From assembly GCA_024276815.1 (NCBI GenBank), contig JAJRWM010000088.1, positions 1 to 9,265 of the forward strand: a DNA stretch of 9,265 nt. The letters run 5' to 3'. Shown one piece after another: positions 2,378 through 8,930 of this stretch. Origin of the DNA: a bacterium. GTDB lineage: Bacteria; JACRDZ01; JAJRWM01. How positions within the stretch are numbered: the stretch's first letter is position 1; each line of letters opens with the position of its first letter. The notes beneath the pieces are model-generated. The model was not told the origin of the DNA. It was given only the letters and a program-made list of their open reading frames with translations, and searched no databases. The translations under genes were made by a program, and so were the position numbers.

Positions 2378-2495
2378 CCGCTTGCTTTACGCCCTTCGCC
2401 TAAAATGTTAAATCGGTGTTAAATCAACCGGTTAGGCTTTACTTGGATTTGATTGTATTGTATTAATATACGGGATACGGAATGGAGTTAGGCTG
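2378..2495 (+). promoter_or_regulatory. AT-rich upstream region of nadE-wHTH with tandem direct repeat and possible promoter
   Basis: This 118-bp non-coding gap contains the exact 9-bp direct repeat TGTTAAATC at 2406-2414 and 2417-2425, an 11-bp period. Downstream lie TTGGAT (2443-2448) and TAATAT (2464-2469) as possible -35 and -10 boxes, with a short 15-bp spacer, or TATACG (2467-2472) with an 18-bp spacer. OmpR/PhoB-family regulators typically bind head-to-tail repeats at about 11-bp spacing just upstream of -35. The gene that follows encodes such a DNA-binding domain. The repeat is seen; promoter and operator functions are inferred. Confidence 0.4.
2406..2425 (+). repeat. Two tandem copies of TGTTAAATC, 11-bp period (candidate OmpR-type operator)
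   Basis: Two identical 9-bp units start at 2406 and 2417 and are separated by GG. The 11-bp step puts both on the same DNA face, as in PhoB or OmpR boxes. No convincing third unit is present at 2395 or 2428. The centre lies about 28 bp upstream of the possible -35 at 2443. Confidence 0.6.
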
Positions 2496-3524
2496 TTGCT
2501 TGATAATATTAGCGGTTGGATAAAGAAACAGGTCAGACAGGCCGGTAAAACCGGCGTTGTGCTTGGCCTGAGCGGTGGAATAGATTCAGCGTTGGCGGCG
2601 TTTTTGGCGGTTCGGGGACTGGGTAAAGAGCAGGTGTTTGGCATTTACCTGCCTTGCGAAAGCAATCCGCGGGATATAGCCGACGCCAGGCTGGTCGAAC
2701 AGAAGCTGGGAATAAAAACCTTCCTGAGTGATTTGACCGATGTCTACCGGGAACTGATTCAGTTATATCCCAAAGCGCCTAAGTCCGTTAACATCAATTT
2801 AAAACCCCGGTTACGCATGATTACGCTGTATCACCATGCCGGGCTACACGACTGTCTGGTCCTGGGCACCGGCAACAAGAGCGAACTGCGTCTGGGTTAT
2901 TTCACCAAATACGGCGACGGCGGCGTTGACCTGTTGCCCCTGGGCGATCTTTATAAGCATGAAGTGACCACCCTGGCCCGCCAGATTGGCGTGCCGCAGC
3001 CGATTATCAACAAACCGCCCAGCGCCGGACTGCATGACGGGCAGACAGACGAGGGAGAAATTGGTCTGTCGTACGGCGAGATCGACCATATCCTGGAGTG
3101 TCTGGAGAAGGGCATCCCCTGTGAGAGCTCCCAGGATAATATCGATAAAGTCAAACTGCTGGTGAAAGCCAGCGAACATAAGCGGGATTGCCTGCCGACA
3201 TTTTACAAGGACAAGCAAGCTGAGATGGAAATAGTTATCAGCCCTGATTTAAAAATATTGCCGCAACGTTATCAGGTTATTTACCGGGAAGAGCCGGTGG
3301 AGATGACCTTGAAGGAATATGAATTATTTAAATTTTTATCCTCTCATCCGGGCAAGGTTTTTACCAGGGAGCAATTGTTAAAAGCTGTCTGGGGAGATGA
3401 TTTCTGGGGAGGCGCCCGCACAGTTGACGTTCATATAAGACGTTTACGATCCAAGCTGGAGGGAGCGGGCGATACCTTTATCGAGACTATCCACTCGGTA
3501 GGTTACGCGTTCAGGAAAATATAA
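2496..3524 (+). CDS. nadE: Ammonia-dependent NAD+ synthetase fused to an OmpR/PhoB-type winged-helix DNA-binding domain
   Basis: Residues 1 to about 238 form a complete NH3-dependent NAD synthetase, which amidates deamido-NAD (NaAD) with ATP and ammonia to give NAD+. Seen: the PP-loop SGGIDS (26-31), GTGNKSE (124-130), GYFTKYGDGGVDLLPLGDLYKHEV (134-157, in part), KPPSAGLHDGQTDEGEIG (173-190) and the terminal EHKR (227-230). No nitrilase/glutaminase domain is present, so free ammonia is the expected donor. Residues about 245-342 form a winged helix of the response-regulator C-terminal type: MTLKEYELFKFL (270-281), GKVFTREQLLKAVWG (286-300), the recognition helix region RTVDVHIRRLRSKL (308-321) and FIETIHSVGYAF (328-339). 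There is no receiver domain. Reading is continuous, so this is a fusion rather than two overlapping genes. The TTG start has GGAG (2484-2487) eight bases upstream. The fused domain may bind its own upstream repeat and/or control the adjacent glnA. That is inference. Confidence 0.92.
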   Translation: MLDNISGWIKKQVRQAGKTGVVLGLSGGIDSALAAFLAVRGLGKEQVFGIYLPCESNPRDIADARLVEQKLGIKTFLSDLTDVYRELIQLYPKAPKSVNINLKPRLRMITLYHHAGLHDCLVLGTGNKSELRLGYFTKYGDGGVDLLPLGDLYKHEVTTLARQIGVPQPIINKPPSAGLHDGQTDEGEIGLSYGEIDHILECLEKGIPCESSQDNIDKVKLLVKASEHKRDCLPTFYKDKQAEMEIVISPDLKILPQRYQVIYREEPVEMTLKEYELFKFLSSHPGKVFTREQLLKAVWGDDFWGGARTVDVHIRRLRSKLEGAGDTFIETIHSVGYAFRKI

Positions 3525-3576
3525 TTTTGTGAGTTGTTCACATTAGAAAAAACCATAATTAATAAAGGAGAGAGTT
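3525..3576 (+). promoter_or_regulatory. nadE-glnA gap with inverted repeat TGTGA-N5-TCACA and strong ribosome binding site
   Basis: The 52-bp AT-rich gap holds an inverted repeat, TGTGA at 3528-3532 and TCACA at 3538-3542, with a five-base spacer. It resembles a dyad operator such as a CRP/FNR-type site, although those normally have six (CRP) or four (FNR) central bases. AT-rich sequence with weak -10-like matches (CATAAT 3554-3559) follows. AAAGGAGAG (3564-3572) is the glnA Shine-Dalgarno. No copy of the TGTTAAATC repeat is present. glnA could have its own promoter or be read from nadE. Confidence 0.35.
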
Positions 3577-4917
3577 GTGACAGAGAAGATGGTAAAAGAC
3601 AAGGAATACGTTCTCAGGATGGTTAAGGAAAAGGATGTGAAATTCATCCGGTTCTGGTTTACCGATGTTTTGGGTTTTTTGAAAAGTTTCGCGATAACCG
3701 CCGCGGAGTTGCCGGAAGCGCTTGAGGACGGCAATGGGTTTGACGGTTCCTCGATTCAGGGTTTTACCCGTATCGAGGAGAGTGATATGATAGCAATGCC
3801 CGAACCGTCAACTTTCCAGATTCTGCCCTGGCGCCCGACGGACAAGGAATGCGTTGCCCGCATGTTCTGTAATGTGCTGACCCCGGAAGGTGCGTCCTTT
3901 CACGCTGACCCGCGTTATGTGCTCAAGAAGGTGGTTAAAGAGGCCGCTGATTTAGGTTTCACCTATTACGTCGGTCCGGAACTGGAGGATTTTTACTTTA
4001 AAAATGACACCACGCCGGAAGGCATCGACAAGGGCGGTTATTTTGATTTAACTCCGCTGGATCTGGCCAGCGATTTAAGACGTGACACCGTGCTTACCCT
4101 GGAAAAGATGGGTATTCATGTTGAGTACAGCAACCATGAGGTCGCTCCTTCCCAACATGAAATCGACTTGAAGTACGCTGACGCCATGACTATGGCCGAC
4201 ATCGTTATGACCTATCGGCTGGTAGTTAAGGAAGTGGCCACTCTGCACGGACTGCACGCGACCTTTATGCCCAAACCGATCATGGGTGAAAACGGTAACG
4301 GTATGCACGTTCACCAGTCCTTGTTCAAAGGAAGCTAAAATGCTTTTTATGACGCGAACGATCCATCTTATCTTTCCAAAACGGCTAAAAGTTACATCGC
4401 CGGCTTGTTGAAACACATCAAGGAAATCGCCCTGGTTACCAACCAGTGGGTTAATTCCTATAAACGCTTGGTGCCGGGTTATGAAGCTCCGACCTATATC
4501 GCCTGGGCGCAGAAGAACCGCTCCGCGCTGGTTCGGGTGCCGATTTACAAGCCAGGCAAGGAAAAAGCGACTCGTATTGAGCTTCGCTGTCCCGATCCGG
4601 CTGGCAACCCGTACCTGGTTTTCGCCGTTATGCTGGCGGCCGGTCTCAAAGGCATCAAGGAAGGTTATGAATTACCGGCTCCCATTGAGAATAACATTTT
4701 CGAAATGGATGAAGCGGAACAAATGAAACATGGTATCGAATCAATGCCGGGCAGTCTGCATGAGGCGATACTGCACGCTGAAAAGAGCGAGTTGCTCAAA
4801 GAGACTTTAGGCGAGGAGCTACTAGGCTTCCTGATTCGCAATAAACGGGCTGAATGGAACAGTTACAAAACCCAGGTTACGCCATATGAGTTGGCAACCT
4901 ATTTGCCGGTGCTTTAA
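3577..4917 (+). CDS. glnA: Type I glutamine synthetase, interrupted by in-frame TAA
   Basis: Glutamine synthetase makes glutamine from glutamate, ammonia and ATP in the cytoplasm as a dodecamer. The frame of 446 codons matches short type I-alpha enzymes, but TAA at 4336-4338 (codon 254) breaks it. Seen: DGSSIQGFTRIEESDM near residues 49-64, including the Arg of the feedback-sensing loop; GPELEDFYF (metal-binding glutamates, usually PEFF, so slightly divergent); NHEVAPSQHEID; the ammonia/ATP region MPKPIMGENGNGMHVHQS; and after the stop NQWVNSYKRLVPGYEAP, NRSALVRVP, RIELRCPDPAGNPYL and a normal C-terminus ending YLPVL. At the stop, the sequence LFKGS-stop-NAFYD corresponds to a place where relatives commonly have lysine, so AAA to TAA is likely. 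The GTG start is set by AAAGGAGAG at 3564-3572. The long adenylylation-type insert is absent. It lies downstream of the ammonia-using NadE fusion and before a strong terminator. Confidence 0.9.
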
Positions 4918-4950: not shown

Positions 4951-4999
4951 AAGGTTTGGCAACCCCTTTTTCCGAAAACAAGGGGTTGCCAAACCTTTT
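4951..4999 (+). terminator. Perfect 18-bp-stem intrinsic terminator after glnA
   Basis: Bases 4951-4968 (AAGGTTTGGCAACCCCTT) are the exact reverse complement of 4980-4997, with an 11-base loop. Two more T follow to make a short T4 tract, and an A6 run lies at 4941-4946. It sits 33 bp after the glnA stop and ends the nadE-glnA block. The stem is unusually long and mismatch-free, and its A/T flanks could also let it work on the other strand. Confidence 0.85.
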
Positions 5000-7616: not shown

Positions 7617-8930
7617 GTGGATCTTTTTGGTGAACCCAAGCAAACTCCTCCTGATCTCCTCCCGCTCTCAGCCCGTTTTATTCCCACCGGGCTGGAAGAT
7701 TTGGTGGGGCAGGAACATTTAACGGCCAAAGGAAGGTTGTTATACCGTTCACTACGGAGCGACCGTCTTTTTTCAGCCATATTTTTCGGTCCTCCCGGCT
7801 GTGGCAAGACGGCTTTAGCCCGTCTTTTCGCGCTCAAAAGCCAGGCGAATTTCCTGGAGATCAACGCCGCCAGCTCAACCGTGTAAGATTTACGTAGAGC
7901 GCTGGCGGAAGCCAAACAAAAGCTGAGCTTTCAGGGTGAGAGAACAATCCTCTTCATTGATGAGATCCATCATTTTAACCGACGTCAACAAGACGCCTTG
8001 TTGCCCGAGGTGGAAAGAGGCTCCGTGACCCTGATTGGCAACACCACTGAAAACCCTTATTTCTCAATAATTACGCCCTTATTATCCCGGGTCCAGCTCT
8101 TTGAGTTCAAGCCCTTGTCCCCGGAACACATTATAACGATCTTAAAACGCGCGCTCTCTGACAAGGAAAGGGGCTTGGGCCGCTATCAGGTCGAGTACGA
8201 GGAGGAAGCGTTAAGACATCTGGCAATCCAGTCCGGCGGCGATGCCCGCCGCGCGGTAAATTCCCTGGAAGTGGGAGTCACCTCGACCGCCCCCGACGAG
8301 CGGGGAATAATCCGGTTTGACCTGGCGGTGGCTGAAGAATCAATCCAAAAAAAGATGATCCGCTACGACGCGTCCGGCGACGAGCATTATAACGTCGTTT
8401 CGGCTTTCATCAAGAGTATGCGCGGCGGCAGTCCCAACGCCGTTCTCTACTGGCTGGCCCGCATGATTGAAGCCGGCGAGGACCCTCGTTTTATCGCCCG
8501 CAGAATAGCCATCTGCGCTTCGGAAGACGTTGGCAACGCCGATCCCCAGGCTGTAGTGGTCGCCGCGGCGGCTTTTGAGCTGCTGGAGAAGATCGGTATG
8601 CCCGAAGCGAGAATAATCCTGGCCCAGGCGGCGTTATATATAACTACAGCTCCGAAGAGCAATAGTGTTATAATAGGAATCGACCGCGCTCTGGCAGATA
8701 TAAGAAATGGTGAGAACCTGGAAGTTCCTGATCATTTGAAAGACCCTCACCGCCCCTTTGCCAAGGCCGAGGCTTATAAATACCCTCATAATTTTGACGG
8801 TAATTTTGTCAGGCAGGCTTATATAACAAAAAAGATGAATTACTACGAACCTGGTGAAAATGGTTACGAGAAGATTATTAAGAACAGAATTGAGGCCTGG
8901 TGGATCGGCAAGAAAGGAAAGACCCAGTGA
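7617..8930 (+). CDS. rarA: RarA/MgsA AAA+ ATPase (replication-associated recombination), interrupted by in-frame TAA
   Basis: RarA acts at stalled replication forks and is related to clamp-loader ATPases and WRNIP1/Mgs1. The frame gives 437 codons, the normal family length, but TAA at 7884-7886 (codon 90) lies between Walker A and Walker B. Seen: N-terminal VDLF and LEDLVGQEHL, Walker A GPPGCGKT (58-65), Walker B ILFIDEIHHFN (111-121), sensor-1 region GNTTENPYF (family consensus GATTENPSF, so Ala to Asn), the Arg-finger region LLSRVQLF, sensor-2 GGDARRAVNSLE, and the C-terminal tetramerisation-type domain with SEDVGNADPQA and the final GYEK region. Around the stop, NAASSTV-stop-DLRRAL aligns with the family's G-V-K-D-[IL]-R, so a lysine AAA became TAA. 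I prefer GTG 7617 to GTG 7608 because AAAGGTGAT (7604-7612) sits correctly before it and relatives start MDLF. GTG 7608 would overlap the dgt stop. Confidence 0.9.

Follow-up and report, generated by a model that had tools for sequence, protein, structure and literature searches.

Organization of the locus

The stretch of DNA analysed in this work (the window) corresponds to an entire contig of 9265 bp, which belongs to a draft assembly of 246 contigs, 91% complete. On its forward strand, a stop-free frame (positions 2496..3524) starts with TTG, ends with TAA and encodes a protein of 342 aa; a Shine-Dalgarno-like GGAG element can be read on the same strand (2484..2487), 8 nt 5′ of the TTG start at 2496. 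The gene directly after it is glnA, assigned by Pfam as glutamine synthetase (3577..4917, forward strand), which has a GTG start and carries an in-frame TAA at 4336-4338. Right after glnA, a 21-bp inverted repeat with 95% complementarity and a 5-nt loop (4951-4997) has the appearance of a terminator.

The 342-aa protein is composed of an NAD synthetase (NadE) domain of the ammonia-dependent, single-domain type (2502..3188, forward strand; identified by Pfam and NCBIfam, with intact catalytic residues), a short linker, YKDKQAE (3204..3224, forward strand), close to which, within a few residues, the stop points of intact relatives fall, and a winged helix of the OmpR/PhoB class, complete and apparently nearest to GlnR, which opens with an in-frame ATG (3225..3521, forward strand). 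Specifically, a Pfam scan of the fusion protein assigned residues 3-231 to PF02540 (NAD_synthase, E 3.9e-73) and residues 266-339 to PF00486 (Trans_reg_C, E 4.7e-25), the latter spanning model positions 2-77 of 77 and being therefore full-length; with values this low, neither domain match can be due to chance. The same scan detected neither a receiver domain (PF00072) nor the atypical GlnR receiver (PF21695), whose place is occupied by NadE, nor an NMN adenylyltransferase/kinase or Nudix domain of the NadR/NrtR type. Accordingly, the NadE-winged-helix fusion is confirmed as read in the contig sequence: a preliminary description of this DNA had proposed a NadE joined to a complete OmpR/PhoB winged helix in one frame without a receiver, and had placed the winged helix at 3228-3524, close to where it was found. 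The AlphaFold model of the protein is confident for NadE and of low confidence for the linker, including residues 241-256, and for the winged helix, for which there was no alignment; with this part poorly predicted, the model was set aside as functional evidence.

The NAD synthetase half

The enzyme half passes the NCBIfam NAD+ synthase equivalog PRK13980 with 260.3 bits against a cut-off of 255. In an alignment of 35 rows including the fusion, all 35 residues that are invariant among the 34 relatives are retained, the PP-loop SGGIDS being among them, and the catalytic motifs SGGxDS, GTGNKSE, GYFTKYGD, QTDEGE and HK are all present; a mixed alignment that also contained winged-helix sequences put the C-termini of NadE in the wrong places and was left out. 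As judged from its residues, the enzyme half thus looks active, in line with the premise of an active enzyme on which the regulator had been proposed. A genome search identified the fusion protein as the sole NAD synthetase of the draft genome, two further weak PF02540 matches being short pieces of other frames, and as the single NAD synthetase the NadE half is presumably essential. Among the other genomes, G070, G116 and G381 each hold two single-domain NAD synthetase genes. In studied relatives, NadE is a homodimer. Compared with the NadE family (TIGR00552 / PRK13980), the fusion has the whole enzyme domain and every invariant residue; the difference is that the relatives read stop within about 15-20 residues of the HKR..P.F motif, whereas the fusion adds a winged helix of 99 residues.

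A winged helix probably related to GlnR

Among solved structures, the best matches to the winged helix are 8hml, 8hig and 8hih, with E-values from 1.4e-25 to 4.1e-24, while WalR, VicR and PhoB rank behind these three (E 3.5e-22 and weaker). The entries carry only the titles of OmpR-family or transcriptional regulators; from our reading of them and from the published GlnR structures, we take their chains to be GlnR. GlnR-DNA and GlnR-polymerase structures have been described (PMC10704036).

In genomes, the closest relative of the winged helix is found at locus L153, with 58% identity, and the nearest relatives (L153, L154, L156, L157, L161 and L196) have degenerate receivers, in L156 partly so. 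The L153 protein (L192:7019-7816) matches the Pfam family GlnR_1st at 1e-5, just below the cut-off, and this match beats Response_reg. Its gene, which lies in another genome and encodes a GlnR-like orphan regulator, stops 5 nt before glnA (L192 7019-9159), and L194, a further winged-helix relative, precedes a glnA at a distance of about 1.9 kb. That the winged helix derives from a PhoB/WalR-type two-component regulator was considered and rejected, the similarity to this type being lower than that to GlnR. In the genome itself, only one other OmpR-type winged helix was found, within an ordinary response regulator truncated at a contig end. From similarity and glnA context, the winged helix is apparently of the GlnR type, a small tree leaving its exact position among the relatives unsettled.

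The glnA neighborhood and possible nitrogen control

The vicinity of nadE and glnA is not restricted to this contig. Specifically, the two genes lie about 310 bp apart or less in 11 of 80 NadE relative loci, in several phyla and in either order. Pairs in distant phyla occur at L048, L067, L101, L087, L034, L062, L058, L075, L072, L090 and L098, a recurrent connection between two enzymes that use ammonia. A three-gene nadE-glnR-glnA intermediate was not found. In vivo, NadE and GlnA compete for ammonia (PMC3376133). Taken together, the GlnR-type winged helix and the adjoining glnA point towards a control of nitrogen metabolism and not just of NAD. The preliminary description had read the protein as a possible transcription factor sensing NaAD, NAD+, ATP or ammonia: the fusion on which this reading was built stands, while the GlnR-type helix and the adjoining glnA, which point to nitrogen control, had been missed.

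A candidate binding site upstream of the fusion gene

The region upstream of the fusion gene contains an exact 9-nt direct repeat, TGTTAAATC-GG-TGTTAAATC (2406..2425, forward strand), whose copies begin at 2406 and 2417, that is, 11 nt from start to start, and which is a candidate site for a pair of winged helices of the OmpR/PhoB/GlnR type. When the 118-nt region was shuffled with dinucleotides preserved, a run of at least 9 at spacing 11 was reached in 11 of 20000 shuffles, and about 197 kb of genome scanned held one similar run besides the repeat upstream of nadE. GlnR binds head to tail to sites spaced 5+6+5 bp, that is, to 11-bp repeats (PMC10704036), and the spacing of the upstream repeat equals the geometry bound by OmpR, PhoB and GlnR domains. 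Of the two regions proposed beforehand for DNA binding, 2378-2495 does contain a PhoB/OmpR-type 11-bp direct repeat, while 3525-3576 is without a comparable one.

Using this motif, the genome scan returned 46 matches in total, versus 22 for a reversed-pattern control. The nadE-upstream site is the single match in the genome with fewer than two mismatches. A regulon could not be drawn from the motif: the exact site is found at nadE alone, both two-mismatch sites are intragenic and the three-mismatch matches resemble chance. The published GlnR box consensus was also tried at nadE and glnA and rejected, the best match (6/8) being reached in 29% of shuffles and hence not significant; in 3525-3576, matches to this consensus are no better than in shuffles.

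These data bear on the idea that the fusion is genuine and at the same time inert in regulation, NadE serving as the enzyme and the winged helix being a passive remnant after deletion of the receiver. In keeping with such a remnant, GC3 drops from 0.64 to 0.49 going from the nadE part into the winged-helix part, the fusion was not found to recur, and the catalytic half, as the only NAD synthetase of the genome, would presumably be essential. However, the winged helix is preserved over its whole length, with an intact recognition-helix stretch, TVDVHIRRLRSKL, and the 11-bp direct repeat lies upstream; we consider an inert fusion improbable.

Recurrence of the fusion and quality of the assembly

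A run-on from NadE into a winged helix was found in none of the 80 closest NadE proteins in GTDB genomes, in none of about 400 widely sampled genomes, including the phyla of the closest matches, and in none of the plasmid records and viral contigs searched. Within its own phylum it was likewise not found, the sample consisting of three other genomes, none of which has a close NadE, a composition that limits what the non-recurrence can say. Nearly all of the approximately 95 relatives read to their stop end no more than roughly 15-20 residues after the HK motif, at the position of the linker. Some apparent extensions were dismissed. In particular, L031, L063 and L095 gave tblastn matches that seemed to extend beyond residue 245, but these pass over stop codons and contain no winged helix, and in G257, where nadE and a winged helix share a contig, the latter belongs to an ordinary response regulator 2 kb apart. 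Immediately behind the nadE stop in L031 (3129-4121) comes an Lrp/AsnC-like HTH reading frame, in frame with nadE. Recurrence in relatives, suggested beforehand as a check, is thus not supported so far, and the fusion is seen in one assembly, an outcome named beforehand as one that would refute the proposal. The literature searched, in turn, held no described NadE-winged-helix protein or regulator, and the preliminary description likewise knew of none. The NadE-GlnR-type fusion is new among the collections and literature searched, and it rests so far on one assembly.

The quality of this assembly deserves attention, as three other genes of the contig are interrupted by in-frame stops: glnA by the TAA already mentioned, rarA/mgsA by TAA at 7884-7886 and an O-antigen ligase-like gene by TAG at 1490-1492. 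In both glnA and rarA/mgsA, TAA replaces a conserved Lys and the Pfam domains continue across the stop. A reassigned stop codon was considered as the cause and discarded: TAA and TAG both interrupt genes, at Lys and Glu positions, and all three stop codons also terminate genes. The in-frame stops are probable sequence errors, or signs of decay, concentrated in this contig, four more having been found in 187 kb of other contigs scanned. In the same genome, the interrupted frames are those of a trigger factor (L128 13638-15030, minus strand), a glutamate synthase-like oxidoreductase (L132 8749-10165, minus strand), a glycosyltransferase (L133 4757-6095, plus strand) and a UbiA-type prenyltransferase (L134 3254-5228, minus strand).

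Given these interruptions, it is possible, if on the unlikely side, that an adjoining nadE and GlnR-type regulator, the latter either receiver-less or deprived of its receiver in assembly, appear fused through a misread stop or a collapsed assembly. If the stops are errors, they imply about 0.9% substitutions in the contig; any one stop codon would then disappear with a probability of about 2%, against 0.15-0.24% at the rates seen elsewhere in the genome. Consistent with a lost stop, most linker codons are one base away from a stop, the stops of intact relatives fall exactly in the linker region, and the ATG at 3225 is preceded by AAGGA 13 nt upstream. However, a misread stop would still require a GlnR-type gene without a receiver, and no receiver-less homologue (of about 100 aa) is present among the 83 winged-helix matches at E <=1e-17, all of which lie in frames of at least 223 aa; a lost stop alone is therefore insufficient to explain the arrangement. 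A collapse, for its part, needs sequence common to both ends, of which no sign was seen. In addition, the two domains meet at a clean, in-frame boundary, and no unexpected fusion was seen in ten other proteins of middle size from this genome. Because a lost stop needs a stand-alone GlnR-type helix and the ten other proteins have a normal architecture, a genuine fusion is favoured, and the junction is probably present in the living genome. Should it nevertheless prove an artefact, the recurring nadE-glnA and GlnR-like-glnA pairings would stay useful leads.

Proposed origin and mechanism

The best explanation that we can offer, and one that we hold with as much doubt as confidence, is that the gene encodes a bifunctional NAD synthetase-transcription factor, in which NadE replaces the GlnR receiver and which regulates nadE-glnA. 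An ancestral nitrogen cluster, nadE - glnR-like - glnA, might have been the starting point, and one in-frame deletion, from the end of nadE to the linker of the GlnR-like gene, would account most simply for the gene as it is now. NadE would thereby have been substituted for the atypical, non-phosphorylated receiver of GlnR. As a dimer, NadE could place a pair of GlnR-type winged helices on direct repeats of 11 bp, for example at 2406-2425, and the fusion protein would control its own operon with glnA downstream. DNA binding may in turn change when NadE is occupied by ammonia, NaAD and ATP, or by NAD+. Beyond the observed architecture, retained residues, neighbours and repeat, we infer that the junction exists in the cell, that a deletion produced it, that the NadE dimer drives binding, and that the genes and ligands named are involved. 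For a fusion that is genuine and also regulatory the chances appear evenly balanced; it is doubtful, while conceivable, that an active ammonia-dependent NadE in place of the GlnR receiver directly senses ammonia, together with NaAD/ATP, in order to control glnA.

How GlnR itself senses nitrogen is unsettled: no partner kinase phosphorylates the receiver, and post-translational modification has been put forward instead (PMC10704036). As this receiver serves dimerisation (PMC10704036), a dimeric enzyme could substitute for it without any ligand switch. Following this reasoning, NadE would be a scaffold that only dimerises for constitutive binding, with control exerted by gene dosage or autoregulation and a signal other than NadE catalysis. 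Nothing direct stands against such a role, although it would leave a ready sensor of ammonia and NaAD unused; we judge it improbable. If the bifunctional regulator is confirmed, the exchange of a receiver for an ammonia-using enzyme would represent a directly testable nitrogen sensor, in which gene control is coupled to the use of ammonia in a so far undescribed way. NAD synthesis and nitrogen assimilation, which compete for ammonia via NadE and GlnA (PMC3376133), would thereby be linked, and the evolution from enzyme to regulator would be caught with the enzyme still intact.

Comparison with known systems

In general, fusions between enzymes and DNA-binding domains are an already known kind of protein, with NadR, NrtR, PutA and BzdR as examples. 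NadR and NrtR (PMC12735969) also combine an NAD-pathway or Nudix domain with a helix-turn-helix, but their enzyme domains (NMN adenylyltransferase/kinase and Nudix, respectively) are unrelated to NadE and their DNA-binding domains belong to other families. BzdR, an HTH-XRE domain joined to a shikimate kinase-like domain (PMC3602430), is likewise a regulator formed by joining a DNA-binding domain to an enzyme; its enzyme half, however, is degenerate, whereas that of the fusion is intact, and the domains differ. To trigger enzymes, the fusion bears a resemblance of architecture alone. With the OmpR/PhoB-type response regulators it has in common the C-terminal Trans_reg_C winged helix, while their N-terminal phospho-acceptor receiver is missing. 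The closest parallel in DNA binding is GlnR of actinomycetes, an atypical OmpR-family orphan regulator of glnA, which apparently provides the nearest DNA-binding domain by sequence in the structure database and shares with the fusion the 11-bp repeat geometry and, through the nearest winged-helix relative, the glnA context. In GlnR, an atypical receiver precedes the winged helix; in the fusion, NadE stands in that position.
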